A DNA stretch of 64,000 nt from Cryomorphaceae bacterium (GTDB taxonomy: Bacteria > Bacteroidota > Bacteroidia > Flavobacteriales_D > Sanyastnellaceae), in NCBI GenBank assembly GCA_016124575.1, contig WGNM01000022.1, positions 62,001 to 126,000 of the forward strand. The letters run 5' to 3'. The notes beneath the pieces were generated by a model. That model searched no databases, was not told where the DNA came from, and saw only the letters and a program-made list of their open reading frames with translations. The position numbers were made by a program, and so were the translations under genes. This document shows, piece after piece, positions 6,157 to 21,010 of the stretch (position 1 is its first letter; each line of letters opens with the position of its first letter).

Positions 6157-7530
6157 ATGAAAGCACTAACTTACCTTATGATGATTTTGGTTTTGATGGG
6201 TGGCGTTTCTTGCGCCACCTCAAAATCATTCTCTAAAAAAGGAAAAAAGCTCGAAGAAGCTGGACTCCTTGATGAAGCAGCGAATATGTACCTCACTTCT
6301 TTGCAGAAGAACAGAGGAAATATTGATGCAAAAATCGGCTTGAAGTCGACAGGACAAGTTGTGCTCAATAAGCGTCTACAAGAATTCGTTCAGAAGAAAG
6401 AATTTGGGAATAAAAGAGATGCCATACAAGCCTACCAACTTGCTGAAAAATACAAGCAACGTGTTGCAACGTTAGGCGTAGAACTGGCCATAGCTGAATT
6501 TTACCAAAACGACTTTGAGACGTTCAAGTTGATGTATATGGATGAATTGTATGCCGAAGGACTTGCTTTGATGGACGAACAAAAATTCAAAGAAGCAGAA
6601 TTACTCTTTCGCGAGATCAATTCATTGGATCCATCGTATCAAGATGCAGGGTCATTGGCCGACATTGCATATGTAGAGCCGATATACAAAAAAGGTGTCG
6701 AACATCTAGATGCTGAGCAATACCGAGCGGCTTACAATGAATTTACTACAATCATCAAGCGGGCCGGCGCGTATAAAAACTCAATGGAGCTTCAGAAAGA
6801 GGCATTGGAAAATGGACTTTTCACCATTGCCATGATCCCTTTCGAGAATAGCACCTCATTGAAAGGACTTGACAGCAAAGTAGCCGCTTATGCACTAGAA
6901 GCATTGACAAGTGTTAATGACCCTTTCTTGAAAGTAGTCGATCGGAACAACCTCACAATGATCATTGAAGAGCAGCAACTCGGATTGAGTGGAGTGATCA
7001 ATGAGCAAACCGCTGTTTCAGTTGGGGAGTTGATTGGTGCGCAAGCTTTTGTAACCGGTACCGTGTTGAATTACAACAAAGTTGACGGTCAGCCAAGCCG
7101 CAGTGACAGAGAAGGATTTCGCCAGTACCAAGTAAAACGTCTTAACAAAGAAGACAACAAATACTACTACGAAACGAAGTACGATAAAACAACATACAGA
7201 GAGTTTTACGACTTTAACAAAGTGGTTATCAGTTTTCAATACAAACTCGTTTCTTTGAAAACTGGGGAGATACTGCAGTCACGCATCATTGAAAAAGAGC
7301 AGATCAGCGAAACACGTTGGACAGAGTATGACGGTGAGGTTCAAAGCTTGTTTCCTTCTACAGGAAGTGGTCCGAACACCAACAACCGCGCAAAAAACTC
7401 TTTGATGCAAATGATGAATGCACAGCGGACACCTGTAACGCATGAAGAACTTACCAACGCTGCGTTTCAAGCGGTTTCTGCCGACATGAAAAACGACATT
7501 TCGAAACTTATGTTACAAATAGTCAAGTGA
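6157..7530 (+). CDS. CsgG/HfaB family lipoprotein with TPR-like N-terminus
   Basis: A 457-residue lipoprotein (lipobox GGVSC, mature start CATSKS). Residues ~25-215 are helical with TPR-like repeats (ALMDEQKFKEAELLFREINSLDP; YKKGVEHLDAEQYRAAYNEF). From ~220 the domain FTIAMIPFENSTSLKGLDSKVAAYALEAL, followed by FLKVVDRNNLTMIIEEQQLGLSGVINEQTAVSVGELIGAQAFVTGTV, matches the periplasmic fold of CsgG, the curli secretion channel, also shared with LpoB-type PBP activators. The transmembrane hairpins of real CsgG are not evident by eye. It overlaps the next gene by GTGA. No curli subunit gene is nearby, so a curli role is not supported. Confidence 0.85.
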   Translation: MKALTYLMMILVLMGGVSCATSKSFSKKGKKLEEAGLLDEAANMYLTSLQKNRGNIDAKIGLKSTGQVVLNKRLQEFVQKKEFGNKRDAIQAYQLAEKYKQRVATLGVELAIAEFYQNDFETFKLMYMDELYAEGLALMDEQKFKEAELLFREINSLDPSYQDAGSLADIAYVEPIYKKGVEHLDAEQYRAAYNEFTTIIKRAGAYKNSMELQKEALENGLFTIAMIPFENSTSLKGLDSKVAAYALEALTSVNDPFLKVVDRNNLTMIIEEQQLGLSGVINEQTAVSVGELIGAQAFVTGTVLNYNKVDGQPSRSDREGFRQYQVKRLNKEDNKYYYETKYDKTTYREFYDFNKVVISFQYKLVSLKTGEILQSRIIEKEQISETRWTEYDGEVQSLFPSTGSGPNTNNRAKNSLMQMMNAQRTPVTHEELTNAAFQAVSADMKNDISKLMLQIVK

Positions 7531-8900
7531 GTAAATTAGTCAGACATATCACCTTGCTAGCGTTTATCATTATGATTTTGGCTACTGCATGCAAAGGACC
7601 TAAGAATATAGAGTCTGTAGCGGCCAAGCCGAAACCAGAGTGGGTAAATGATCGTCCGCTAAACAGCTCATACTACATCGGTATTGGTTCTGCTTCTAAA
7701 AAAGTAGAACCACTGGAGTACGCCACTGTAGCGAAGAAAAATGCCATGAACGATCTCGCTTCTGAAATCCGCGTCACCGTGAAAAGCGAATCGTTTTTGA
7801 ATACCATGCAGGTCAATAATTATGTCCAAGAAGAATTCAACTCAACCATTTCCACCCTCGCAAATGAAGAGCTAGAAGGCTTCGAAATCATTGATGTTTG
7901 GGAGAATGGCGACGACTACTGGATATATTACAGACTTTCGAAATCAACCCATGCCCACATAAAGGCAGAAAAAAAACAAAAAGCCATGCAGTCGGCGCAT
8001 GATTTTCTCTTGAAAGCACAAGATGCCCGAGCAAATGGAAATGTGCCCTCGGCATATGACCTTTACATGCACGGCTTGTTCGACATGAAAGATTATTGGA
8101 ACGATGTCAATGTCTGGGAAGATGGCACCTACCTCGACAATACCTTATACAAAGAGATGCGAGAGATGGTTTCGAACGTGCGTTTTGAAACAGCAGACAA
8201 CGAAATACTCTTGAACCCGAACAATAGCTTCAAAAAAGAGGTGAAAATTTCTGCGACAAGCGGAGGAAAAGCAGCAGCAAATTTGCCGATATCGATTACA
8301 TTCGACAACGGGAAATTTAGAAATGTCCAGTTTCTAAGCACCGACCAACAAGGAAATGTGGTAGTGCGCATTGCAGATGCCAACCTCAAGAATACAGCGA
8401 ATGTGCTTACCGTGCAGGTTGACCTCGATAAACTTCGACCAAGCGACCTAGACAGAAAACTAGTTGATGGTTTGATGGAATCTGTAAATGCCAACAGGAA
8501 ATCCATTCCCATTCGCGCAACCTTGCCTGTTGTAGCATTTAAAGTGTCTGAGAAGAACTTCGACCAGACGCTCGCTTCCCAGCGTTTAGCTGATCCGCTC
8601 AGGAAAGTGTTTTCTGATGAAGGCTTTACTTTTTCGGAGAATGTCAGCAAAGCTGATTACGTGATAACCATCGATGCAAACACGAGAGAAGGAGGCACCT
8701 CGAGTGGCTTTCACGTAGCCTATCTAGATGTAAATTGGAGTTTAACAGCCAAATCTGGAAGTGTGCTCTTGCAAAATAGTGAAAGCAACATCAAAGGATT
8801 GCAATTGAATTTTGAAGCTGCCGGACTAGATGCTTATCGAAAAGGTTCACTTCAAATGGAAAAGGAAGTCTCTAAAAAAATACTTGACGCAATATTCTAG
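7527..8900 (+). CDS. LPP20-family lipoprotein, large
   Basis: A 457-residue lipoprotein starting at GTG 7527 inside the GTGA overlap with the CsgG-like gene; the lipobox is ATACKG. Residues ~35-150 (KPEWVNDRPLNSSYYIGIGSA, then EYATVAKKNAMNDLASEIRVTV) are an LPP20 domain, the fold first seen in a Helicobacter outer-membrane lipoprotein. The middle contains an Ig-like stretch (NSFKKEVKISATSGGKAAANLPISI). The C-terminal part (LRKVFSDEGFTFSENVSKADYVITIDANTREGG) resembles the LPP20/CsgG-associated fold again. It probably sits at the outer membrane with its neighbours. Confidence 0.8.
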   Translation: MSKLVRHITLLAFIIMILATACKGPKNIESVAAKPKPEWVNDRPLNSSYYIGIGSASKKVEPLEYATVAKKNAMNDLASEIRVTVKSESFLNTMQVNNYVQEEFNSTISTLANEELEGFEIIDVWENGDDYWIYYRLSKSTHAHIKAEKKQKAMQSAHDFLLKAQDARANGNVPSAYDLYMHGLFDMKDYWNDVNVWEDGTYLDNTLYKEMREMVSNVRFETADNEILLNPNNSFKKEVKISATSGGKAAANLPISITFDNGKFRNVQFLSTDQQGNVVVRIADANLKNTANVLTVQVDLDKLRPSDLDRKLVDGLMESVNANRKSIPIRATLPVVAFKVSEKNFDQTLASQRLADPLRKVFSDEGFTFSENVSKADYVITIDANTREGGTSSGFHVAYLDVNWSLTAKSGSVLLQNSESNIKGLQLNFEAAGLDAYRKGSLQMEKEVSKKILDAIF

Positions 8901-8968
8901 TATTTTTGGCACGGTTTTTCGAAACCCAGAATAACAAATAATTGAATACCCACACAAAAACCACGAAT

Positions 8969-9553
8969 ATGAAAAAGTTCATCACAACCAACGGACTATT
9001 TATGTTGCTTGCTGCTACCGTTTTGATCGGAGCACAGGGATGCAAGAAAAACAAAGAAGTAGTTGAAGCAAAGCCAGCTGGCGAAGTTATCATCAATGAG
9101 TACTGCACAGGCGACAACTACATGTCGAGCAAAGAAACATTTCGCTCTGCCGCTACAGGTGAAAGCATGAGCCGCGAAACAGCAAAAAAGATGTCTCGCT
9201 CAAATGCTGAAGACGAATTGGCACGTACCATCAGCTCAACTTTGAAAGCTGTAACAGACAACTACGTGAACTCTACAAAATTCAACAACAAAGAAGAAGT
9301 TACTGAAACATTCAACAACCTCGCAAGAACAGTTGTTGATCAGCAACTGCGCGGAGCAATCACAATTTGCGATAAGCTTACTCAAAAGCCAAACGGTAGT
9401 TATGTTAGCTACATAGCAATTGAACTTTCTGGCGAAGATGTTGCCGCAGCATACAATGAACGTCTTTCTAAAGACGAAAAAATCATGGCTGAATACAACT
9501 ACGAAAAGTTCAAAGAAACATTCGAAGCTGAAATGGAGAAATTAGGAAACTAA
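8969..9553 (+). CDS. LPP20-like lipoprotein, small
   Basis: A 194-residue lipoprotein. The ATG at 8969 gives MKKFITTNGLFMLLAATVLI followed by a lipobox GAQGC and a charged mature start KKNKEVV; an upstream TTG (8942) would only add nine residues. The mature protein has the LPP20 pattern (FRSAATGESMSRETAKKMSRSNAEDELARTI) like the gene before it, so the operon holds one long and one short copy of the fold. A strong terminator follows 22 bases after the stop, marking the end of the four-gene unit. Confidence 0.78.
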   Translation: MKKFITTNGLFMLLAATVLIGAQGCKKNKEVVEAKPAGEVIINEYCTGDNYMSSKETFRSAATGESMSRETAKKMSRSNAEDELARTISSTLKAVTDNYVNSTKFNNKEEVTETFNNLARTVVDQQLRGAITICDKLTQKPNGSYVSYIAIELSGEDVAAAYNERLSKDEKIMAEYNYEKFKETFEAEMEKLGN

Positions 9554-9575
9554 TTCACTCATTACCATAAAATTG

Positions 9576-9608
9576 AGCCCCATCTTTTACAGATGGGGCT
9601 TTTTTTTT
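9576..9608 (+). terminator. intrinsic terminator of the DUF4476/CsgG/LPP20 operon
   Basis: A perfect 10-bp stem (AGCCCCATCT, 9576-9585, with AGATGGGGCT, 9591-9600), a 5-base loop and then eight T residues (9601-9608). Confidence 0.92.
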
Positions 9609-9624
9609 GAAAGTATCATTTCAT

Positions 9625-9632
9625 TATCTTTG
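9625..9632 (+). promoter_or_regulatory. -7 promoter box ahead of the type A T9SS gene
   Basis: TATCTTTG matches TAnnTTTG exactly, 17 bases before the ATG at 9650. The nearest upstream TTTG (9606-9609) is only 15 bases away, shorter than the usual -33 spacing. Confidence 0.45.
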
Positions 9633-9649
9633 TCGTAATCCTACCTTTT

Positions 9650-12193
9650 ATGCGGCATCTATTCACCCTTTTTGTCATTCTCTCTTCCACTTTAGCAGCG
9701 AACGCACAAGTTTACGGAACCCCCATTTTTACATGGGATTTTGCAAATGGTATTCCGGCAAACTGGACGAATGAAAGCGATAGTGGAATCGGACTTTGGG
9801 AATATCGCGGACCGAGCACAACGCCAGATAATACAGTTTGTTCGCAAGGCTCGTGCGGTGCTACTTCGGTTCCAATTACGTCGGTAACAACCGGTAATGG
9901 GTTTGTTATTTTCGATTCTAATTACTGGGACGACCCTGTTGGACCATGTGGAAATTTTGAAAGTGGCGCAGATCCTGGTCCCCATAGTGCACGCCTAATT
10001 ACAAATCCAATAGATCTGACTGGTTATTCAGCTATTTCACTTGCTTTTCAACAGCAGTATAAACATTATCAATGTGAGACTTCTGTTCACCTTTCGGTGG
10101 ATGGCGGTCAAACATGGACACAAATCCACAACAATCCGGGTGAAAACGCAATTTCAGCATCCTCAGTTTGGGTAAATGTGAATCTCAATGCAAATGCCGC
10201 CAATCAAAGTGATGTCCGATTCAAGTTTGAATTTACTGGCAACTATTACTTTTGGCTGCTTGATGACATAACAGTATTCATCCCAAGCAACAACGACCTC
10301 CTTCTCACCAATGCCCGATTTACTCAATACGATGGTACATTGGCACCGTCTGGTTTTGGCGATATGGAATACTTTGATTACCCGACAAGTATGCCTCCTA
10401 GCATGAAATTCTCAAGCAGAATTACGAACATCGGCGGTTTGACACAGAACAATGTTCAGATGAACGTAAAAGTGTTCAATGGAGCCAATGAGCAGCTTTA
10501 CAATACGAGCACCACAGCAGTAAATGTATCTTCTGGCGTGCAAATCAGTCCGAGCATTTTCACCCCTTACATCCCCCCTGCAGTTGTCGACAATTACTCC
10601 ATTCAATTTAGCGCCGTGCAATCGCAAACCGATGAGACGCCGAGCAACAACCTGGTAACGAAAAATGTGCGCTTGACACCATTTATGTATGGCAGAGATA
10701 AAGGATCACTAGAAGACACTTTTTTCCCTTCTGGCATTTACGAAGGTGAGGCGTATGAGCTCGGAAATGTTTTTGAGGCAACAGTATCGAATCTCCGCTT
10801 CCACTCCATTGCTGTTGCCTTTGCTGAACCAACTGTTCCTGGAACGGAAGTCTATGGCATCGTTTATAATCTCACTAGAACTCAAGTTTTGGGCACCACT
10901 CAGCCTTATGCAATAAACGAATGGGACATAAATCAAGTTGGTGAAGAGCGTATGATTCACCTCCAATTGAATGAAGACATTTTACTGATTAATGACAGTG
11001 CCTACATCGTCATGGTGGGATACAATGCTGCACCAGATGAAGCCATGTTTTTAGGCCGCAGCGGACCGAGTCCGATTCAATCTTCGCTTATTTCTTATCC
11101 CAATTTGAACGGACTGTTTTACATGTTGCGCACGCCCATGGTACGCATGGATATATTTCCTAACTCAAGTGTTCCGGGATGCATGGATGCAGAAGCCATG
11201 AACTATGAACCAGAAGCCACCATGGATGATGGTTCTTGCAGATATCCTGGATGTTTGAATACGGAAGCAACAAACTATGACCCAACGGCGAACTTTGCCG
11301 ACGACACCTGCATTATTGAAGGATGCACAGATCCAGCAGCATCCAACTACAATGAAGAAGCTACTGATGAAAATGGCACGTGCTTGTACCCAGGATGCAC
11401 AGATGCAAATGCAACCAACTACAACGAAGGAGCAAACATTGACGATGGAAGCTGCGACTATCTAGATGCCTTCATAAGCGCTCCTGCCGTTTCGGGATGT
11501 TCAACGTTCGAACTTATCATCAACAATCAAACAGCATTCAACGAATTCTCTACTTGTCTGCTTGAGATATTGGATAATTTAGGGACAATCGTAGCTACAT
11601 TTGATACATGCAATGAGACTTGGAGTCTGCTTATAGACACGCCAGGTGTCTACTCTGCGAATTTCTTTTATACTTCTGGTGAATTCGAATCTTCGTTTTC
11701 TATTTCAGATTTAGTTGTCTTTGCTAACCCTGACCAACCATCGTTCAGCTATGACGGCACGAATTTGAATTGTGATGGCTGTGACGGACAAACAATTCAA
11801 TGGTTTTTGAATGGTGCGTTGGTTGCCGGTGTTGAAACCAGCTCTTGGGTACCAACTGAAAATGGTGATTATGCAGTGCAAATATCTACTACAGATGGAT
11901 GTTCGGCTATCAGCGAAACTGAAAATGTAATCGTTATCGGTGTTTACGAAGCAGCATTCCGTTCATTAAACTTGTACCCAAATCCATTTGAGGACACGTT
12001 TATTATTGATGGAGACAATACCCTTTTGATTGAAATTTACGTCTACGACCTCACAGGAAGAATCGTTTACAGCCAATCAAACATCAATCAAAAGACTGTG
12101 GTTGTAAGCGGAGCAGACTGGAGCAACGGCGCTTATCTTATTTCTATAGCCACAGAAGCAGGCATTCAAAACCAGCGATTGGTGAAGCGATAA
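9650..12193 (+). CDS. T9SS type A sorting-domain protein with tandem Cys/Asp repeats
   Basis: An 847-residue secreted protein. A signal peptide (MRHLFTLFVILSSTLAANAQ) is followed by a lectin- or MAM-like beta-sandwich (about 25-215; WDFANGIPANWTN, then FEFTGNYYFWLLDDITVF). A CARDB/Ig-like region comes next, then four 24-residue repeats (residues 509-604) and a further Ig-like part. The C-terminal ~75 residues (LNLYPNPFEDTFIIDGD, ending GIQNQRLVKR) are a type A sorting domain, directing export by the type IX system and surface anchoring or release. Probably an adhesin or surface-layer component (inference). It appears to be its own transcription unit. Confidence 0.9.
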   Translation: MRHLFTLFVILSSTLAANAQVYGTPIFTWDFANGIPANWTNESDSGIGLWEYRGPSTTPDNTVCSQGSCGATSVPITSVTTGNGFVIFDSNYWDDPVGPCGNFESGADPGPHSARLITNPIDLTGYSAISLAFQQQYKHYQCETSVHLSVDGGQTWTQIHNNPGENAISASSVWVNVNLNANAANQSDVRFKFEFTGNYYFWLLDDITVFIPSNNDLLLTNARFTQYDGTLAPSGFGDMEYFDYPTSMPPSMKFSSRITNIGGLTQNNVQMNVKVFNGANEQLYNTSTTAVNVSSGVQISPSIFTPYIPPAVVDNYSIQFSAVQSQTDETPSNNLVTKNVRLTPFMYGRDKGSLEDTFFPSGIYEGEAYELGNVFEATVSNLRFHSIAVAFAEPTVPGTEVYGIVYNLTRTQVLGTTQPYAINEWDINQVGEERMIHLQLNEDILLINDSAYIVMVGYNAAPDEAMFLGRSGPSPIQSSLISYPNLNGLFYMLRTPMVRMDIFPNSSVPGCMDAEAMNYEPEATMDDGSCRYPGCLNTEATNYDPTANFADDTCIIEGCTDPAASNYNEEATDENGTCLYPGCTDANATNYNEGANIDDGSCDYLDAFISAPAVSGCSTFELIINNQTAFNEFSTCLLEILDNLGTIVATFDTCNETWSLLIDTPGVYSANFFYTSGEFESSFSISDLVVFANPDQPSFSYDGTNLNCDGCDGQTIQWFLNGALVAGVETSSWVPTENGDYAVQISTTDGCSAISETENVIVIGVYEAAFRSLNLYPNPFEDTFIIDGDNTLLIEIYVYDLTGRIVYSQSNINQKTVVVSGADWSNGAYLISIATEAGIQNQRLVKR
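11174..11461 (+). repeat. four tandem 24-residue (72-bp) repeats in the T9SS protein
   Basis: Four consecutive units with pattern PGCxDxxAxNYxxxAxxDDGSCxY at protein residues 509-604. Each has two cysteines and a conserved NY and acidic DDG-type loop (one unit reads DENGTC, another ADDTC). The period is exactly 72 bases, so copy number could change by recombination, although DNA identity between units is only moderate. Confidence 0.85.
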
Positions 12194-12268: not shown

Positions 12269-13177
12269 ATGAACCGACTGATATTCTACTTTGTCGCAAT
12301 TGTAATTTTTGCTTCGTGCAAGAAAGAGGAGGTTGTGTTTGAGAACAACGACATTCCTGAATATGATGGCATCCCTACCCTACTCGTACAAAATTATGTG
12401 AATCGCCTGTTTATCGATTTGATAGGGCGTGAACCATTGGATACCGAAATGAATGCAGAAGTGGCAGCCCTAGAAACAGCAGGATTGTCGTTCACCGCTC
12501 GGACCGATTTAGCAAACCGGCTTATTTATAGCACCAACTATTTAGCTGGCGACAGCTCATACAACTACGCTTATCATGTCAAATTGTATGAGAATGCCAA
12601 AGCCCGACTGTTGGAAGGAGCATCAGACGCCTACATCTATTCAGAATATGGAATCTTCAGAAATGCAGCAGTAAACGATTCGGCCGGAGGAAATTTTACA
12701 GGTTATGAATTGAATATGGCACAGGCCAATCGGCTGTTGGACATCATTTATTCTCGTGAAGAATTGCGAATGGGAGAGATCGACATAGATGAGATGTTCA
12801 GACGCATGATGTACAATTCCATCTATGACCAAATCAACATGAACAGCTTCAATTTCGTGAATGCCACCTTCAACGATTTGTATTATCGCTTTCCAACCCA
12901 ATCTGAATTTGAGCACGCTTACAACATCATTGAGTTCAATCAACCCGCTGAATTGTTCGGAAACATCATTCAGAACAAGACCGAGTACCTTGAGACGCTG
13001 ACGCAGAATCAAGAGTATTTCGAAGGCATGATTCAATGGGCTTATCAATCGCTGTTGTCGCGTGATGCGCAGACCAGTGAGGTGTTCCAACTAAGCGGCA
13101 CATTCATGTCAGACAAGAATTTTCAAACCGTTCAACTCAAAATTTTAATCTCAGATGAGTATGCAGGTTTTAATTAA
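12269..13177 (+). CDS. lipoprotein resembling DUF1549 / DUF4214-type helical domains
   Basis: The ATG at 12269 gives MNRLIFYFVAIVIFASCKKEE, a lipoprotein signal; the longer TTG frame is unlikely. The product is 302 residues and largely helical. QNYVNRLFIDLIGREPLDTEMNAE (about 45-65) resembles the 'RLylDltGlpPt' pattern of planctomycete DUF1549 and also DUF4214. Two further short echoes are NDLYYRFPTQSEFEHAY and YQSLLSRDAQTSEVF. First gene of a run whose reading frames touch or overlap down to 20840; it overlaps the next gene by 23 bases. Function unknown; family placement is by pattern only. Confidence 0.72.
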   Translation: MNRLIFYFVAIVIFASCKKEEVVFENNDIPEYDGIPTLLVQNYVNRLFIDLIGREPLDTEMNAEVAALETAGLSFTARTDLANRLIYSTNYLAGDSSYNYAYHVKLYENAKARLLEGASDAYIYSEYGIFRNAAVNDSAGGNFTGYELNMAQANRLLDIIYSREELRMGEIDIDEMFRRMMYNSIYDQINMNSFNFVNATFNDLYYRFPTQSEFEHAYNIIEFNQPAELFGNIIQNKTEYLETLTQNQEYFEGMIQWAYQSLLSRDAQTSEVFQLSGTFMSDKNFQTVQLKILISDEYAGFN

Positions 13178-13652
13178 ACATCTCAGTTTGGTGGTTCTAG
13201 TGATCGCCATGTTCGGTTGCAAAAAAGAACCCGAGGCAAAATTTGAGTTGAACAATATCGAATTGTACCCAACGTCGGCGGGAAAAGACAAACTCAAAAC
13301 CAACGAACAATACGTTGCTATACTGCATGCCAATTTGTTTCAGACGGCCTTATCGGCGAACGATATTTTTGACGTGAACAACTGCATCGAGTCGATAGGC
13401 GACAAAGAACTGGCGCGGGAAGTCATCATCTCCAATTTCATGAACAAGCCGGAAGTGCAGATCCCTTCGGTGGAGCTTATGAACGAAGACCTCGATCAAT
13501 TTATAGAAGACACCTACGTGCGATTCTACGTCCGTTATCCCACGCAAGCAGAGAAAGAATACTTGAGAAATTTCATTTCTGGAAATCCATACATGACACC
13601 AGAACTCGTTTACTTCTCATTTGCCCTATCGAACGAATACATGTTTTATTAA
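13155..13652 (+). CDS. lipoprotein resembling the DUF1553 C-terminal region
   Basis: A 165-residue lipoprotein (lipobox IAMFGC, mature start CKKEPE); ATG 13155 and ATG 13161 are both possible starts. The C-terminal part, with YVRFYVRYPTQAEKEYLRNF then ELVYFSFALSNEYMFY, resembles the end of DUF1553 proteins ('LyrraLgRpPTpeEl... aLlnsnEFlyv'). It overlaps the gene before it by 23 bases and is followed after 7 bases by the DUF1501-like gene. That order copies the DUF1549-DUF1553-DUF1501 arrangement of Planctomycetes, but split. Function unknown. Confidence 0.7.
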   Translation: MSMQVLIKHLSLVVLVIAMFGCKKEPEAKFELNNIELYPTSAGKDKLKTNEQYVAILHANLFQTALSANDIFDVNNCIESIGDKELAREVIISNFMNKPEVQIPSVELMNEDLDQFIEDTYVRFYVRYPTQAEKEYLRNFISGNPYMTPELVYFSFALSNEYMFY

Positions 13653-13659
13653 AATCGCT

Positions 13660-14994
13660 ATGGAAAGAAGAGACTTTTTAAAGAAAGGAGCGCTAACCAC
13701 AGCGGGAACGATCATGGCGCCTTACATCCTGCCGACAGGCAGACTTTTTGCACCGTCTGGCAGGCAGATGGGCGGACACGTCGTGCTCGTTATGTTTGCA
13801 GGAGGGGTTCGTCAGCAAGAGAGTGTATTGCAACGTTATCTTGACGACAGTCAGATCAACAACCCGTATGCAGGGAATATCATGTACAATATGCTCACGG
13901 GTGCGGCGCCAACACAAAAAATCGTTTTTGGAACAGGTCAGGGAGGTATCAACCCCATACCATCGATACTTTCGCAATCGCTGCAGCAGCAGGGCACTCT
14001 GTTCCCAGAAGTAAATGCCCTGAGTGCAGGTCATTTTGGTGGATTGAATTCCTTGATTCAGGGCAGCATGGTCACCACTCAAGGATTAAAACAACGTCCG
14101 CTGAACCCTACAATTTTCGAATACTTGCGCCGTCACGGCGGATATAGCGCATCCGACATTTGGTTTGTCGGAAACGGCATTGGAAACTCCGTACCGCTGT
14201 TAAATTACAGTGCCCACCCAAATTACGGGGCGCAATACGGAGCTAACTTCTTCGCACCCACCGTTACTTTTAGCGATGTGGGTGAGCAGTTTCTAGGCGA
14301 TGCGAAAATATACCACCCTGAAAACGAGTTGGCGCCGATGTATCGGTTGAAGTACTTCCTCGATAACGCTTTCGATCAATACGCAGATGGATTGTTATCG
14401 CTTGGAAATACCGCAGAAGAAAAGTTGAACATCAAAGCCTTCATGGATGAAATGTTTACACGCACTGCCAACGGCACCATTGACCTTCCTCCTATTGCTG
14501 ATAATGGTGATTTGGTGAATGTAGGATATGCCTGTGAAGTGATGAAATGGTTCAAACCAGCTCTCACTGTGATCAATTTGAACGCCGTAGACACTTGTCA
14601 CTCGAACTTTACTGGATACTTGCAAGCGCTGCATAGGGCTGATCATGCGGTTGGACATATTTGGAATACCATTCAAAATGAGATTCCGGAGATGGCTGGC
14701 AACACCACCATCATTTGCACACCTGAATGTGGTAGGAACGACAACCCCAACAACATTCTCGATGAAAATGATTGGCGCTCATACGATCACTCGGATGCGA
14801 ACTCCTTGCGTGTTTTCTCACTGCTAGCCGGCCCGAACATCCCTTCGAACCTTGTTGTAGGTTCAGAAACGAACCCGGTTGGTATGGTAACCGATAGCAT
14901 GATGACGATAGCTGATATTTTAGGTGTTAAAAATGAAGTGCAAGCTGCGGGAATGACTGCCGGAGGAACCATGTCGTTATTGGATTTAATATGA
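13660..14994 (+). CDS. DUF1501-like protein with twin-arginine-type signal
   Basis: The ATG at 13660 yields MERRDFLKKGALTTAGTIMA, a Tat-like signal (RRDFLKK), and lies 7 bases after the previous stop; the longer frame overlaps that gene. The 444-residue protein has an alkaline-phosphatase/sulfatase-like layout close to DUF1501. HVVLVMFAGGVRQQES opens the domain, LTVINLNAVDTCHSNFTGYLQ lies in the middle, and TTIICTPECGRNDNPNN with YDHSDANSLRVFSLLAGPNIP near the end match the 'EFGRtp..N...rDH...llaG' signature. The catalytic residue of true sulfatases (C/S-x-P-x-R) was not seen. It overlaps the next gene by ATGA. Confidence 0.78.
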   Translation: MERRDFLKKGALTTAGTIMAPYILPTGRLFAPSGRQMGGHVVLVMFAGGVRQQESVLQRYLDDSQINNPYAGNIMYNMLTGAAPTQKIVFGTGQGGINPIPSILSQSLQQQGTLFPEVNALSAGHFGGLNSLIQGSMVTTQGLKQRPLNPTIFEYLRRHGGYSASDIWFVGNGIGNSVPLLNYSAHPNYGAQYGANFFAPTVTFSDVGEQFLGDAKIYHPENELAPMYRLKYFLDNAFDQYADGLLSLGNTAEEKLNIKAFMDEMFTRTANGTIDLPPIADNGDLVNVGYACEVMKWFKPALTVINLNAVDTCHSNFTGYLQALHRADHAVGHIWNTIQNEIPEMAGNTTIICTPECGRNDNPNNILDENDWRSYDHSDANSLRVFSLLAGPNIPSNLVVGSETNPVGMVTDSMMTIADILGVKNEVQAAGMTAGGTMSLLDLI

Positions 14995-15947
14995 GGTACG
15001 TTGCTGTCATATCATTGCTGGTAGTGCTGACCGTTGCCGTTGGGAGCTGTAAGAAAAAAACCGTCGACAACCCATACGAGGTTGAGACAGTGATTGTAGA
15101 CAACCCTGTGGCAGATGAGTTGCCTTATGGAAATTTCGCGTGGCTGCATGCCAAAGTATTCAAGCCTACTTGCGCCAATAGTGGCTGTCATGATGGTACA
15201 TTTGAGCCTCACTTTGCAACCATCTCATCGTCGTACAATTCACTCGTTAACCATGCCGTCATTTCCAATGACGCACAGTTCTCATATACCTATCGTGTGG
15301 TCCCCGGTGCGCTGAGCAGCTCGTTACTTTACACCCGAATGACTGAAAACATTCCAAACACAACGGGCATTATGCCGGCAGTTGTGGATGCTGGATCTGA
15401 TTGGCCAGCCATGGGTACCGTATACAAGAACGTGATCAAAGCGTGGATTGAAAATGGTGCCATAGATATGTATGGCAACGCACCAGGAGCTGCTGGAGGA
15501 GATTTCCCTCCGCAGGTTGAAGGGTTTGCTGTTTTCCCTCAAGGCAATACCACTGAACCTTATTTGCGTGAAGAAGACGGTATTGGAATAACACCTGTGC
15601 TTGTAGACAATGGCCTGGTGGACGTATGGGTGCGGGTTTCCGACGACAATACTACGGCAACATCGCTAACCGTTAACGAACTGCGTTTCGCTACTGAGAT
15701 TTCAGGCATTGACGCTGAATTTCCAGTTAATTTTTCTACTTCAGCAACCATTCAAGCGACAGATTTCAGCAATGGGGCGGCCACTTTCTATCACAAAGCG
15801 ACCATCGACTTGAGCAGCTATGCAGCTGGAACTAGTCTGTTTTTGCGAACCTATTTTTCAGACGGCGTTCAAACAGCCACCACGGTAATACCGAATGAAA
15901 ATAGCAACCCCATTATCACATCCATCTTTGTTTTGAAAATTCAATGA
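14991..15947 (+). CDS. lipoprotein with CX4CH motif, cytochrome c-like N-terminal part
   Basis: A 318-residue lipoprotein (lipobox AVGSC, mature start CKKKT). Residues ~48-160 look like a cytochrome c-type domain. VFKPTCANSGCHDG carries a CX4CH heme-like motif, and TRMTENIPNTTGIMPAVVDAG offers a methionine in the place where class I cytochromes supply the sixth ligand. Whether heme is attached is uncertain because the standard site is CX2CH. The C-terminal half is beta-rich (VDVWVRVSDDNTTATSLTVNEL). It overlaps both neighbours by ATGA, so it is translationally tied to the DUF1501-like gene. Confidence 0.72.
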   Translation: MRYVAVISLLVVLTVAVGSCKKKTVDNPYEVETVIVDNPVADELPYGNFAWLHAKVFKPTCANSGCHDGTFEPHFATISSSYNSLVNHAVISNDAQFSYTYRVVPGALSSSLLYTRMTENIPNTTGIMPAVVDAGSDWPAMGTVYKNVIKAWIENGAIDMYGNAPGAAGGDFPPQVEGFAVFPQGNTTEPYLREEDGIGITPVLVDNGLVDVWVRVSDDNTTATSLTVNELRFATEISGIDAEFPVNFSTSATIQATDFSNGAATFYHKATIDLSSYAAGTSLFLRTYFSDGVQTATTVIPNENSNPIITSIFVLKIQ

Positions 15948-16378
15948 GGACATTTGCCATCATAACATTGGTGCTGCTGCTTTCTTGCAAAAAGAAAGAG
16001 GAAGTATCGCTAATACCTGTGATTGAATTGAAATCGGTATCGGAGACGACCGTTGTTGCATTCGACAACGAAATACGTGTTGAATTAGCCTTTACTGACC
16101 ACAATGGCGACATCGGTTATGCCGATCCAGATATCTATTCTGTGCGCGTGAAAGACAGCCGGTTGGAAGATTTTGATTGGTACCATGTGCCACCTGTTAC
16201 TCCAGACCTGATGGAATTGGACGTATCAGGCAATCTGACCATCATATTAAATCCGCTGTTTTTACTTGGAAATGGTGAAGAAGAAATAGCCAGTTTTACT
16301 TTGCAACTAAAGGATCGGGCAGGAAACTGGTCGAATCAGGTTACTACAGCGAACATAACCATTGTTGACAGCCTGTAA
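15944..16378 (+). CDS. small lipoprotein with Ig-like fold
   Basis: A 144-residue lipoprotein (LVLLLSC, mature start CKKKEE) with an alternating beta-strand pattern, including FDNEIRVELAFTDHNGDIGYADPD and SFTLQLKDRAGNWSNQVTTANITI, as in cadherin- or Ig-like domains. DHNGDIGYADPD could bind calcium (inference). It overlaps the previous gene by ATGA and is followed after 2 bases by the large T9SS type B gene. Function unknown. Confidence 0.7.
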   Translation: MRTFAIITLVLLLSCKKKEEVSLIPVIELKSVSETTVVAFDNEIRVELAFTDHNGDIGYADPDIYSVRVKDSRLEDFDWYHVPPVTPDLMELDVSGNLTIILNPLFLLGNGEEEIASFTLQLKDRAGNWSNQVTTANITIVDSL

Positions 16379-16380
16379 AG

Positions 16381-19300
16381 ATGAGAAACGTTGTCGTTCT
16401 TAGCCTGCTTCTAATGGCATCGTTTGTAACCGATGCGCAAGAAATCATTGCCTACGACATGTCGGATTTGGAAGTGAGTGACTGCGATGGAATCTTGTAC
16501 GATTCGGGCAGTGTTGACGGCGCTTACAGCATCAATGAAGACCTGATTTTTGTAGTAAACACGGGTGGCGCTTCGATTTCCATATCTTTTTTAAATGATA
16601 TCTGTATTGAAGATGGATTTGATCATTTGTACATCCATGACGGACCGGGAATAGGATCGCCATTGCTGGCAGATATCACTGGAGCCGGCTTCATACCGCC
16701 CAATTTGCAAAGTACGGGCGGGGTTGTGACCTTTCATTTCGTATCGGATGTGAGTGCCAGCTATTGTGGATTTGAGATATTGTGGAATACCATTGTTGCG
16801 CCGCCGGTGCCACCATCGCTTGCAGTACCCAATGCACCTGTTTGCAACAGTGGGATTATCAATTTAGAATTTAGTGAAGCCATAGGATGCGACTGGTTGC
16901 TGGCTGACAGTATTGTAGTAACCTCTCTAACCAATTTCAATGTTTTAGATGCAAATGTTGATTGCAACAATGGCTTTGGAACCAGTGCCAACATAACCAT
17001 TGCTCCCGTGCCCACCTACAACTGCGATTTCTCAATCGACCTGGTTTTGGGCATTCCTGATGCATGCGACAGCATTTGGTACTTCCCGTTATCTGCTGGG
17101 TTTTCAATTACCAGTTGTGGCATCGATGCAACTACCTACAGCAATGTTTATGAAGTATGCCAAGGAGAATGCGCCAACATTGGGGTGAATGTTATTGGAT
17201 GCTTCGATTACACCTATGAGTGGAGCAGTGGAGAAACGGTCGCCGGACCTTTTGAGGTTTGTCCGCCCCAAACTACCACCTATACTGTTACCATAACTGA
17301 AGTTCAAACGGGGGTTACAACCACAGAGAGTCTTACAATCACTGTTTCGGAAATAGAGATTCTAGAATCAGGTGGTTTATTGTGTCAAAGCACACCTGCG
17401 AGTAATCTTCAGGCGACGCCTCCCGGCGGATGGTGGAGTGGCCCCGGCATACAAGATGGTGAAACTGGTTATTTCGTCCCCGATAGTTTGATGGGTGGCA
17501 TAAACGTCATCATGTACAGCTTAGATAATGGGTGTTCAGCGACTTTAGTTTACGACATGATACCCATAGACTCCGATGATTTCGCAGCGAGCTGTCCGGG
17601 ACAGGCACCATTCCCATTGATTGGTGAGCCACTTGGTGGTGTGTGGACAGGTCCTTTCGTGAATGCGAACATGTTTGATCCAAGTACGGAAGGAATTTAC
17701 GATTTGGTGTACAGTTTAAACGGCTGTACCGATACCTTACAAATGAGTGTTGGCAATATCGGCGGACAGTTTATGGCCGACACCTTGTGTCAGTCGAATT
17801 GGCCCGACACACTTGTATTTAGTCCGTTTGGTGGCACATGGACTGGCCCCGGCATCATCGACGATTTGTATGGTGTTTTCGACCCCTCCGAGGTGGATCC
17901 TGGCACATACGACCTTGTCTACAACGCCATAGGTTGTGATCAAATTTTCACCATCACCGTGAAAGAAATGAATACAGGGCGGCGCGTTCGCTCTTCTTGT
18001 CCGTCGCAAGCCCCCTACATCCCCTACCCCAACTTTTCACCCATCGGAGGCAACTGGCAAGGCGAAGGCATCATTGATCAGATGACGGGGCTGTACGATC
18101 CAGGCAGTTTGCCTGAAGATTACTGGACCAGTTTGATTTACTATGCACCAAATGGCTGTACAGACACCATATTTATATACAATCGCACTACTGAAATACC
18201 TGCAGACACCGTTCAGATTTGTGCTTCGCAAGAAGGCGCCATGTTGAATTTTGATACTGTTGGCAACGTGCCATTTGGTGGCGATTGGACAGGAAACGGA
18301 GTGATCGATTTGGGAGGTGGCGACTTCTATTTTGAGCCCGATCTTGCCGGAGTGGGATTGCATTGGATCACTTACGATGCCAATGGATGTTCAGACAGTT
18401 TGATGGTCGTGATACATCCCGACAACATCGCAGCTACCGACATCGCATTGTGTTCAGACATAGAACCATTTGTTGTAGACCCTTCTATTTTCACCCCGAG
18501 CGAGTGGATAGGCCCCGGCATAACCGACAGTCAATCGGGAGTTTTTGACCCAACATCCGCCGTGGAAGGCGCGAATATGATTTATTGGACAACAGCTGCG
18601 GGATGTGTTGATTCACTGCAAATTACTGTTGAGCAGTTTCAGCAAGCCGACATTTCCGGACTTTCAGCCAGCTATTGCTATGAATTTCAAGACTTTGAAC
18701 TCATATTGTTTCCAGACGACGGCGTATTGACCGGATCTACATCGGCTACATCATTTAATCCCGCACTTGCCGGAGAAGGGCTTCAAACATTGGTTTACAC
18801 ATGGACTGGCACTTTGTGCAGCAGTTCAATTACAGTTGAAACCTTTGTTTTACCTGCTTTGGACATTGTTTTAACCGCATCGGACCAAGAAATTTGTGAA
18901 GGAAGTGGCACAGTGCTGACAGCTGCTGGGTCAGGCGGACAGCCCGATGCCTTTTTGGAATATACATGGAGTGATGGATTGTTTCCTGTGAATCAGAACA
19001 CCGCGGTACCTGAAAACACGCAGTATTACTACGTCAGCGTGAACGATGGCTGCTCAGACCCCGTTGTTGACTCCGTTTTGATTTCTGTGTTACCACCTTT
19101 GCAACCGACTGTTTCAACCAGTGGTATTGCCTGTTATGGCGAATCGGGATTTGTGACAGCGAGCATATCACCGGCTGGAAATTTCGCTATTTATTGGGAC
19201 GACAACCTTTTTGGGAGTGGCGATCAGGTGAGTGCCTTTTCTGGAGAGATCGTGCCTTTGGTTATTGAAGATATAACTGAAGGATGTCTGTTCGACACCC

Positions 19301-19857
19301 TTGTACTTGTGCCCAGCTACCCGCCTATCACCACCCTATTTTCATCGAGTCCGAATCTCGATTGCATACCTTTTGCGGAGCAACCGATCCAATTTTTAGA
19401 CTACAGTCAAAACGCCATTGCAGGGATTTGGGATTTTGGCAACGGCGAAATTGAACCGTATGCGTTAGGGATTAGTCCGCAGGTTAGCTACCCCCAGCCT
19501 GGCAACTACACCGTGACGCTTGTTGCTGAAAACATTGGAGGTTGTATCGACAGCTTGTCTATAAACGTATGCATTCTCGACCCAGTTGAAATATTTATCC
19601 CTGACTTGTTCTCACCCAACGGTGATGGTAACAACGATTTTCTTTTCATTCGCGGTCGCGGATTGGATGACGTAACATTCAGAGTAATTGATCGCTGGGG
19701 CGTAACCATTTTTGAGACCAACGACCCGAAAGAAGGCTGGGATGGCACACATGGCGGCAAAGACATGCCAAGTGGCACCTATTTGTGGTATGCCAAAGCG
19801 AGGATCTCGACTGGAGAATATTTGGAATTGCAGGGAGACATAACCCTGTTGCGATGA
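16381..19857 (+). CDS. large T9SS type B (gliding-associated CTD) repeat protein
   Basis: A 1158-residue surface protein. After the signal peptide (VVLSLLLMASFVTDAQ) there is a CUB-like domain (about 25-140; DGFDHLYIHDGPGIGSP). Ig-like segments follow, then about seven repeats of 65-75 residues centred on a GGxWxGPGIxDxxxGxFDP core (residues ~347, 417, 483, 556, 632, 707 and a degenerate one at 778). A PKD-like domain (FLDYSQNAIAGIWDFGNGE) precedes the C-terminal CHU_C/type B sorting domain (IPDLFSPNGDGNNDFLFI to GDITLLR). Type B cargo is usually exported with a PorP/SprF partner, and one overlaps its stop by ATGA. It resembles an adhesin such as SprB in layout, though much smaller. Confidence 0.9.
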   Translation: MRNVVVLSLLLMASFVTDAQEIIAYDMSDLEVSDCDGILYDSGSVDGAYSINEDLIFVVNTGGASISISFLNDICIEDGFDHLYIHDGPGIGSPLLADITGAGFIPPNLQSTGGVVTFHFVSDVSASYCGFEILWNTIVAPPVPPSLAVPNAPVCNSGIINLEFSEAIGCDWLLADSIVVTSLTNFNVLDANVDCNNGFGTSANITIAPVPTYNCDFSIDLVLGIPDACDSIWYFPLSAGFSITSCGIDATTYSNVYEVCQGECANIGVNVIGCFDYTYEWSSGETVAGPFEVCPPQTTTYTVTITEVQTGVTTTESLTITVSEIEILESGGLLCQSTPASNLQATPPGGWWSGPGIQDGETGYFVPDSLMGGINVIMYSLDNGCSATLVYDMIPIDSDDFAASCPGQAPFPLIGEPLGGVWTGPFVNANMFDPSTEGIYDLVYSLNGCTDTLQMSVGNIGGQFMADTLCQSNWPDTLVFSPFGGTWTGPGIIDDLYGVFDPSEVDPGTYDLVYNAIGCDQIFTITVKEMNTGRRVRSSCPSQAPYIPYPNFSPIGGNWQGEGIIDQMTGLYDPGSLPEDYWTSLIYYAPNGCTDTIFIYNRTTEIPADTVQICASQEGAMLNFDTVGNVPFGGDWTGNGVIDLGGGDFYFEPDLAGVGLHWITYDANGCSDSLMVVIHPDNIAATDIALCSDIEPFVVDPSIFTPSEWIGPGITDSQSGVFDPTSAVEGANMIYWTTAAGCVDSLQITVEQFQQADISGLSASYCYEFQDFELILFPDDGVLTGSTSATSFNPALAGEGLQTLVYTWTGTLCSSSITVETFVLPALDIVLTASDQEICEGSGTVLTAAGSGGQPDAFLEYTWSDGLFPVNQNTAVPENTQYYYVSVNDGCSDPVVDSVLISVLPPLQPTVSTSGIACYGESGFVTASISPAGNFAIYWDDNLFGSGDQVSAFSGEIVPLVIEDITEGCLFDTLVLVPSYPPITTLFSSSPNLDCIPFAEQPIQFLDYSQNAIAGIWDFGNGEIEPYALGISPQVSYPQPGNYTVTLVAENIGGCIDSLSINVCILDPVEIFIPDLFSPNGDGNNDFLFIRGRGLDDVTFRVIDRWGVTIFETNDPKEGWDGTHGGKDMPSGTYLWYAKARISTGEYLELQGDITLLR
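17400..18850 (+). repeat. region of about seven GG-x-W-x-GPGI repeats
   Basis: Diverged tandem protein repeats, each about 65-75 residues with GGxWxGPGI, an FDP/FxP turn and a conserved xxGC near the end. DNA identity is low, so the repeats are old. Limits are approximate. Confidence 0.75.
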
Positions 19858-20840
19858 GAACCCTGCTTTTCATATTGACCATGGGGGCTTCGTTAGCCAT
19901 TACTGGACAAGACGCCTTGTTTTCGCAATATTGGTTAACACCAGCAAGCATCAATCCGGCAGCTACGGCAACGCAGAACAGCGACTATAGGGCTACGTTG
20001 CAGCGAAAAAACCAAGGAACCTTACCTCAGGTAAAGTTCAACACCAGCCAACTCGTAGGTGAGATGAAACTTTTAAACAACGGTAACCGCCACCTCGGGG
20101 TAGGGTTATTGATTCGACAAGACCGAACGGGGGAAGCGCAACTTTCTGTTTTTGAAGCTGGAGGTTTGCTCGCCTATCATATACGCACAGGCAAGAAAAA
20201 CAGATTGAGTGCTGGGTTCGGCGCGTCGTACCGTCAGCGCAATATTGCTCTTGATGGACTGTCGTGGGACTCCCAGTACAACGGGGCAGGTTTTGACCCC
20301 ACATTGCCAACAGGGGAGACATTTGCTGCCAATACCAGTTGGTCGATCGATTTACAGACCGGATTGCAATGGATGCATGAAGGGAAGCACCGCTACACCC
20401 TAGGATATTCGACCTACCATTACATGCAAGATCAAGGATTGTTGGGCACCAGCGCAGATAAAACCATTTTGCGACATCAATTCATGGGATCATATAGTAA
20501 AAAGCTAAAGCCCGTTGATTTGACCGGAGATTTGTTGTTTGTTCAGCATGGTGGAGCTACCACAGCCATTGTTGGCGCACGTGCCGAGTACAAGTTGGGG
20601 ACAGATTCTCGTTACACCACCGCATCGACATCGAGTTTTGTAATGGCAGGAGCGCACTACCGTTGGGCTGACGCCGTAATTTTGATGGTCGGATATGACT
20701 ATCACAAAACCATGAAAATCACTTTTGGGTACGACATAACAACAGGGAGTATCAAAGCGCTCAATACAGGCCGTGGTGGTTGGGAGCTCGGCTTGGTTTG
20801 GAGCTCACCCGTGAAGAATGAGAGAATACGATTGAAGTAA
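19854..20840 (+). CDS. PorP/SprF family type IX secretion membrane protein
   Basis: The ATG at 19854 overlaps the upstream stop by ATGA and gives a signal peptide (MRTLLFILTMGASLAITGQ). The 328-residue product has the family opening DALFSQYWLTPASINPAATA, a classic 'FSQY...NPA' motif, then alternating beta-strands of an outer-membrane barrel, ending GGWELGLVWSSP. PorP/SprF proteins help T9SS export or attach type B cargo at the outer membrane. The pairing with the 1158-residue protein makes that its likely client. The rest of the T9SS machinery is not in this window. Confidence 0.9.
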   Translation: MRTLLFILTMGASLAITGQDALFSQYWLTPASINPAATATQNSDYRATLQRKNQGTLPQVKFNTSQLVGEMKLLNNGNRHLGVGLLIRQDRTGEAQLSVFEAGGLLAYHIRTGKKNRLSAGFGASYRQRNIALDGLSWDSQYNGAGFDPTLPTGETFAANTSWSIDLQTGLQWMHEGKHRYTLGYSTYHYMQDQGLLGTSADKTILRHQFMGSYSKKLKPVDLTGDLLFVQHGGATTAIVGARAEYKLGTDSRYTTASTSSFVMAGAHYRWADAVILMVGYDYHKTMKITFGYDITTGSIKALNTGRGGWELGLVWSSPVKNERIRLK

Positions 20841-20848
20841 ACGTTGCT

Positions 20849-21010
20849 TTAAGACGTCCAGCGGAAAATCAAGTATATCAAGCATAACAAGAACATCAAA
20901 AAAGAGATCTTGTTGATGCCATGCATCATTCGCAAATTCAATTCTGCCCCTTCTTCTTTTTTGAAAAGGTTAAGCGGGTTGATGTAGTACAGCACTTTTT
21001 TCAAGAACAT
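20849..21010 (-). CDS. 53-residue single-pass membrane protein
   Basis: A short gene: MFLKKVLYYINPLNLFKKEE, then AELNLRMMHGINKISFLMFL followed by LCLIYLIFRWTS. A short amphipathic N-terminus with a basic patch is followed by one C-terminal membrane helix. Small proteins with 'NPLNLFK' and 'MHGINkIS' patterns are widespread in Bacteroidota (possibly DUF6728; name from memory, unverified). It lies 30 bases downstream of ridA on the same strand and may be co-transcribed with it. The coding-like composition, clean stop and family-like motifs support a real gene. Confidence 0.7.
   Translation of the reverse strand: MFLKKVLYYINPLNLFKKEEGAELNLRMMHGINKISFLMFLLCLIYLIFRWTS

Follow-up and report, generated by a model that had tools for sequence, protein, structure and literature searches.

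Positions 12269-20840 of the window (the whole stretch of 64,000 nucleotides that was analysed, from contig WGNM01000022.1 of a Cryomorphaceae bacterium) hold seven closely packed reading frames on the + strand. They encode four lipoproteins, a protein with a twin-arginine translocation (Tat) signal, a surface protein of the type IX secretion system (T9SS) and a PorP/SprF-family protein, which raises the question of whether they do one job together and what that job may be. The block looks like an undescribed envelope machine, and we put the probability that its seven genes form one two-module envelope system at about 0.5. Most likely, genes 1-5 would constitute a periplasmic module that partners the T9SS-displayed protein 6 and protein 7, its shuttle and anchor. 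A sequence-only reading of the window had described seven genes that overlap or lie 2-7 bases apart, and this was borne out when the frames and junctions were re-read. From gene 1, whose start codon is the ATG at 12269, to gene 7, the junctions are an overlap of 23 bases, a gap of 7, two overlaps of 4, a gap of 2 and a last overlap of 4. Because the junctions are so tight, the seven genes are likely to be a single transcription unit.

The same reading had proposed that the genes work as a system, and their co-conservation across genomes speaks in its favour. Full-length orthologues of gene 3 were found in 38 of 100 related genomes (own genome counted), in several families and with an identity of 43-79%; homologues of gene 6 (E <= 1e-40) occur in 39 genomes of the same set. 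Both genes are present in 36 genomes, gene 3 only in 2 (G017, G061), gene 6 only in 3 (G028, G044, G057) and neither in 59, an association with a Fisher p of about 3e-21 when kinship is ignored. Contig breaks account for at least two of the five exceptions: the gene 6 contig of G044 starts beside gene 5, and a fragment of gene 2 is present on another contig of G028. The pair 6-7 lies apart from genes 1-5 in four genomes (G027, G039, G049, G082), all of which still possess genes 1-5. In the first three of them the pair stands between other genes, genes 1-5 being on a different contig, and its flank, with a murA-like gene on one side, is that of the full block in relatives (e.g., L090-L093). Within the genera g5, g10 and g18, neither gene 3 nor gene 6 is present in some nearly complete genomes (G038, G056, G050, G018). 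Genes that stay in the same genome after losing their adjacency argue for a functional tie more strongly than the operon by itself does. Since genes 3 and 6 co-occur and the separated 6-7 pairs keep genes 1-5, the functional link between genes 1-5 and genes 6-7 is well supported.

The order 1-2-3-4-5 is constant in all loci with enough contig (42 loci were read); these represent at least five of the order's families as well as metagenome-assembled genomes (MAGs) of Saprospiraceae. All seven genes stand in a row at 24 of the 42 loci; this count includes L087 of G052, where a stop or frameshift interrupts both gene 6 and gene 7 and the rest of the block is intact. Six loci, namely five of Saprospiraceae/Bacteroidia MAGs and that of G066, carry genes 1-6 with no recognisable gene 7 alongside; four have only genes 1-5 at that place, with room for more, and the remaining ones end at contig edges. 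What stands of the full seven-gene arrangement claimed earlier is a constant core of genes 1-5, from which genes 6-7 may separate and beside which gene 7 may be missing. The block is kept in about 40 genomes while its flanking genes vary by clade, and for this reason it is not a chance grouping. Within the order, 52 of 399 genomes contain gene 2 (families f1, f2, f7, f9 and f13). Among 395 genomes sampled across Bacteroidota only the window's own has a full-type gene 3, and orthologues of the gene also occur in MAGs of Saprospiraceae and other Bacteroidia. The distribution is narrow, yet the system is old enough for several of its proteins to have diverged to about 25-45% identity. The median genome size within the family is 3.1 Mb for carriers vs. 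2.3 Mb for non-carriers. One genome, G088, has two copies of genes 1-5 (L103 and L108), one beside genes 6-7 and the other not. A MAG contig titled Chryseobacterium gleum (L036) bears gene 3 with 62% identity; the title is probably misassigned, as the other named matches are all uncultured Flavobacteriales or Saprospiraceae/Bacteroidia MAGs.

Protein 3 had been taken for a DUF1501-like protein with a Tat signal. The signal is confirmed: the N-terminus MERRDFLKK is of the twin-arginine type, and both arginines are invariant in 38 orthologues. Membership in DUF1501 is ruled out. None of the 38 orthologues matches PF07394, and the sole match to this family in the own genome is another gene, on contig C34. 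The gene 3 profile reaches 15% against DUF1501 partners of PSCyt proteins and 1.4%, inside the shuffle range, against DUF1501 partners of DUF1800 proteins, vs. 99.7% over 314 columns against another branch of the alkaline-phosphatase superfamily. The predicted structure (pLDDT, the predicted local distance difference test, 81) has an alkaline phosphatase/sulfatase fold; PafA, phosphonate monoester hydrolase and sulfatases match it over 250-290 residues with a Z of about 25. The closest branch consists of exported Bacteroidota proteins of 300-380 residues scoring Sulfatase, Phosphodiest or Metalloenzyme. Beyond the window's own gene 3, the 395-genome sample yielded only distant relatives, of about 300-560 residues, that score the same families, and no homologue of gene 1, 2, 4 or 5 stands beside them.

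The closest-branch relatives retain the motifs DG, T-x-x-GH, D-x-x-x-H, DHG and a final H. According to site equivalences taken from the sequence alignment, all 38 gene 3 sequences have GG instead of the DG of the metal Asp, and the nucleophile position is not conserved, having no fixed Thr or Ser. The third motif reads D-x-C-H, the D-H spacing being one residue shorter than in the relatives; the DH pair is replaced by E/D followed by C, H or Q, and there is an invariant DH. Invariant residues are D311, H314 and H377. The signature of an active hydrolase (metal Asp DG, nucleophile Thr/Ser, DH pair) is thus absent from gene 3, and we read its product, from the sequence, as a putative metal-binding protein without the usual hydrolase chemistry.

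Genes 1, 2, 4 and 5 each encode a signal peptide that ends in a lipobox Cys. Every aligned sequence of genes 2, 4 and 5 has this Cys, and in gene 1 its conservation is at least 90%. Profile comparisons between the lipoprotein families by hhalign were run on the mature parts because the shared signal peptides gave falsely high scores when untrimmed. The AlphaFold model of protein 1 (pLDDT 91) is helical throughout. Among the top 50 structural matches to it, the first 38 are phycobilisome linkers with Z from 10.9 to 7.5, after which Z drops to 6. Helical proteins may reach middling Z by chance; the gene 1 sequence profile points the same way, all 15 of its PDB matches being of the phycobilisome-linker type (best E 4e-5). 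Protein 1 is accordingly assigned the DUF4214/phycobilisome-linker fold (PF13946/PF00427). With Pfam cut-offs not applied, DUF4214 matches 17 of 37 gene 1 members (best E 2.7e-5) and 19 of 35 gene 2 members (best E 8e-5), while the phycobilisome linker matches 5 (best E 5e-4) and PSD1/DUF1553 matches 3 members of the two genes (best E 0.008). The N-terminal and C-terminal halves of gene 1 match each other at 90%, and gene 2 matches the C-terminal half at 57%.

Gene 1 had been described as DUF1549-like and gene 2 as resembling a DUF1553 tail. Fused DUF1549-DUF1553 proteins from other Bacteroidota served as the reference, with 40 column shuffles as the control. The N-terminal half of gene 1 matches the start of DUF1549 at 89% over a short stretch of 43 columns, above 40/40 shuffles; the N-terminal motif may be called DUF1549-like, and the protein is better described by the DUF4214/phycobilisome-linker fold. 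In single-sequence scans PSCyt2/DUF1549 (PF07583) is found in 8 of 37 gene 1 members with a best E of 0.003, which is no clear match. The C-terminal half of gene 1 and gene 2 both match the same DUF1553 tail at 12%, again above 40/40 shuffles; for gene 2 this weak resemblance to PF07587 covers 35 columns and barely exceeds the best shuffle (30.3 vs. 28.4), its sequence being DUF4214-like. The C-terminal half of gene 1 also matches DUF1800 at 43%. No Pfam or NCBIfam model scored above cut-off when genes 1-5 were scanned as single sequences; the weak matches to Kre28, gp37_trimer and GspK were dropped as chance.

The proposal that gene 4 encodes a cytochrome-like lipoprotein with a CX4CH motif gained support. 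Residues ~100-160 match the PSCyt1 region of the fused proteins at 93% (hhalign), above 40/40 column shuffles, and C61, C66, H67, M128 and P129 are invariant in 32 gene 4 sequences. Single-sequence Pfam matches to PSCyt1 (PF07635) occur in 2 of 32 members and are not clear (best E 0.048), and the haem motif is CX4CH, not the CXXCH of PSCyt1. The c-type cytochromes use His/Met haem ligation, and CX4CH followed by a later Met-Pro fits this expectation. Two cytochrome c assembly genes (family PF01578) are present in the own genome. Judged by these motifs, the gene 4 product is a probable one-haem cytochrome. No known family was found for gene 5, which encodes a small lipoprotein, the fourth of the block; as a correction to the earlier reading, it is part of the conserved core of genes 1-5.

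Genes 6 and 7 turned out to be what had been supposed, a type B protein of 1158 residues with seven repeats and its PorP/SprF-like partner. The type B C-terminal domain (CTD) of gene 6 scores 51.1 bits to TIGR04131 vs. the NCBI cut-off of 35, and gene 7 scores 125.5 bits to TIGR03519 vs. 90.55. The repeats start near residues 349, 419, 484, 556, 633, 707 and 780, and protein 6 contains 34 Cys. Its N-terminal CUB domain is over the Pfam cut-off in two relatives and below it in the window's copy. The gene 6 products of family f13 (L103, L222) are far larger, at about 1700 residues, and the L222 copy adds a Big_5 domain. In F. johnsoniae and P. gingivalis, type B cargo has PorP/SprF proteins as its shuttle and anchor (PMC12618676, PMC9143113).

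Taken as one envelope system, the block would work as follows. Module A (genes 1-5) would be an exported assembly in which the outer-membrane lipoproteins 1, 2, 4 and 5 hold the folded, Tat-exported and putatively metal-binding protein 3; the linker-type helical domains of genes 1 and 2 would probably scaffold it, and the gene 4 product would contribute c-type haem. In module B, protein 6 would be exported by the T9SS, with its own PorP/SprF-type barrel (gene 7) as carrier and anchor. Cooperation between the modules would span the outer membrane and would most likely serve a haem-dependent and possibly redox reaction with material that protein 6 has captured, or the sensing of such material. 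We infer the outer-membrane location, the physical complex, the attachment of haem, the binding of metal, the redox role and the substrate of the system. An extended version, in which a periplasmic haem/metal lipoprotein complex, a phycobilisome-linker-type scaffold, a non-canonical alkaline-phosphatase-fold core and a T9SS-displayed CUB/PKD surface protein form an undescribed trans-envelope machine of uncultured Bacteroidota that, for example, passes electrons to or from captured material, seems unlikely to us. Several observations weigh against the two-module reading itself. CX4CH is an uncommon haem motif, the co-occurrence counts of genes 3 and 6 are phylogenetically non-independent, and G088 holds a second set of genes 1-5 that gene 6 does not adjoin. 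Saprospiraceae MAGs and G066 lack an adjacent gene 7, and G017 and G061 yielded no homologue of gene 6; module B may therefore be replaceable. The lipoprotein N-termini (CKKEE, CKKEP, CKKKT and CKKKE) are not decisive for the periplasmic vs. the surface side, and lipoprotein export signals vary between genera (PMC5080379).

A different division of labour would make genes 1-5 a maturation or quality-control set for protein 6, concerned with its folding, disulfide formation or metal loading, or with its hand-over to PorP/SprF, and with no catalysis on outside substrates; the haem protein would then serve only the redox handling of the 34 cysteines of protein 6. The abundance of these cysteines, the tight co-inheritance of genes 1-5 with gene 6, unlinked cases included, and the loss of the usual nucleophile and one metal Asp from protein 3, which need not be an enzyme, are all in keeping with such a role. 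To our knowledge, however, most type B/PorP pairs have no such gene set, and this counts against it. Moreover, the type B substrates examined in F. johnsoniae require the T9SS and a PorP/SprF shuttle (PMC12618676), and on balance we regard the maturation role as rather unlikely. Still less probable is that genes 1-5 and 6-7 have unrelated jobs and are co-transcribed by historical accident. The modules are separable, and Saprospiraceae MAGs have no gene 7 beside gene 6, as such a loose collection would allow; yet the modules co-occur even when separated, genes 3 and 6 are jointly missing within several genera, and the block is constant amid shuffled flanks, so that this explanation is disfavoured and has very little to recommend it.

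The sequence-only reading had itself suggested that the parts of a Planctomycete-type PSCyt1-DUF1549-DUF1553 plus DUF1501 module are spread here over separate lipoproteins. Taken as descent, with such a module having been split and joined to a T9SS pair, this would agree with the matches of gene 4 to PSCyt1, of the gene 1 N-terminal half to DUF1549, and of the gene 1 C-terminal half and gene 2 to the DUF1553 tail, all above shuffles. It would also agree with the layout in other Bacteroidota, where in most of 15 stretches (L230-L244) a fused PSCyt1-DUF1549-DUF1553 gene is directly followed by a Tat DUF1501 gene of 470-500 residues; stretches longer than ±1.5 kb were needed to show DUF1501 beside PSCyt2 matches. 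A membrane protein of about 470-720 residues often comes next. Against descent, gene 3 is of another branch than DUF1501, the DUF1549 and DUF1553 matches are weak and few, and no PF07583 protein was found in 60 close relatives. We consider it distinctly improbable. As gene 3 is not DUF1501 and the fold of gene 1 is that of DUF4214/phycobilisome linkers, the idea of distributed parts is at most a loose analogy, which holds for gene 4, in part for gene 1, barely for gene 2 and not for gene 3.

The block shares with the Planctomycete-type module a PSCyt1-like domain, a DUF1549-like motif and a Tat-exported partner of alkaline-phosphatase fold, and differs from it in its separate short lipoproteins, its CX4CH motif, the other-branch gene 3, and the extra gene 5 and T9SS pair. 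Planctomycetes and Verrucomicrobia commonly carry genes of the PSCyt family. The literature describes the function of these genes as unknown and proposes a carbohydrate or redox role (PMC5615132, PMC2754498); according to PMC5615132, nothing is known about them. The own genome also has a bona fide DUF1800-DUF1501 pair (L166; G000 contig C34, 3-3485), followed by a small exported protein with a T9SS-like C-terminal tail. Like the block, this pair sets a helical exported protein, of the family matched by the gene 1 C-terminal half, beside a Tat alkaline-phosphatase-fold protein; no haem protein or PorP/SprF was seen with it, and its Tat protein is DUF1501, unlike gene 3. DUF1800-DUF1501 operons of unknown function stand beside bacterial chitin synthases (PMC5122149). 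Phycobilisome linkers (PF00427) and DUF4214 (PF13946) share the fold of protein 1 and are the top sequence matches of proteins 1 and 2, which differ in being Bacteroidota lipoproteins with no phycobilisome. SprB-SprF and PG1035-PorP likewise combine a type B substrate with its cognate PorP/SprF shuttle; the gene 6 CTD and gene 7 are both over NCBI cut-offs, and genes 6 and 7 form an adjacent pair like that of F. johnsoniae (PMC12618676, PMC9143113). Unlike for gene 6, no co-inherited five-gene lipoprotein/Tat set is reported for SprB or PG1035 in the literature found. Full-text searches, which mostly did not cover subscription papers, gave no description of the seven-gene arrangement.

The locus is a compact relative of the widespread PSCyt/DUF1501 and DUF1800/DUF1501 layouts, whose function is unknown (PMC5615132, PMC5122149). 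Co-inheritance ties it to a surface protein that can be identified and whose export route is known, and the question of function therefore becomes testable. It also places phycobilisome-linker-type domains in Bacteroidota lipoproteins and suggests that a type B T9SS substrate may have obligatory partners beyond its shuttle.

Table 1. Genes of the block, with their positions in the window.
Gene	Positions	Strand	Product
gene 1 / P0001	12269..13177	+	302 aa all-helical lipoprotein; two related DUF4214/phycobilisome-linker-type halves (predicted); DUF1549-like motif at residues ~42-91
gene 2 / P0002	13155..13652	+	165 aa lipoprotein; DUF4214-like; kin to gene 1 C-terminal half; faint DUF1553-tail match
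gene 3 / P0003	13660..14994	+	444 aa; Tat signal; alkaline-phosphatase superfamily with altered metal site; not DUF1501
gene 4 / P0004	14991..15947	+	318 aa lipoprotein; PSCyt1-like domain with CX4CH and Met128-Pro129, then a C-terminal domain, presumably immunoglobulin-like
gene 5 / P0005	15944..16378	+	144 aa lipoprotein; acidic D-x-x-G-D-[IL]-G stretch
gene 6 / P0006	16381..19857	+	1158 aa T9SS type B protein; CUB-like N-terminus, seven ~70-residue repeats, PKD, type B CTD
gene 7 / P0007	19854..20840	+	328 aa PorP/SprF-family outer-membrane protein

The genome that holds the window comprises 3.68 Mb in 61 contigs, and its nearest named relatives are Flavobacteriales MAGs. A PADLOC search returned zero matches and therefore no sign of a known defence system. 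Upstream of the block lies a separate type A T9SS protein (9650-12193), the last of a run of exported genes (lipoproteins, this protein and others; 6157-12193) whose conservation alongside the block is confined to the window's own clade. Directly after gene 7, an imperfect short 9-base repeat occupies positions 20864-20899.

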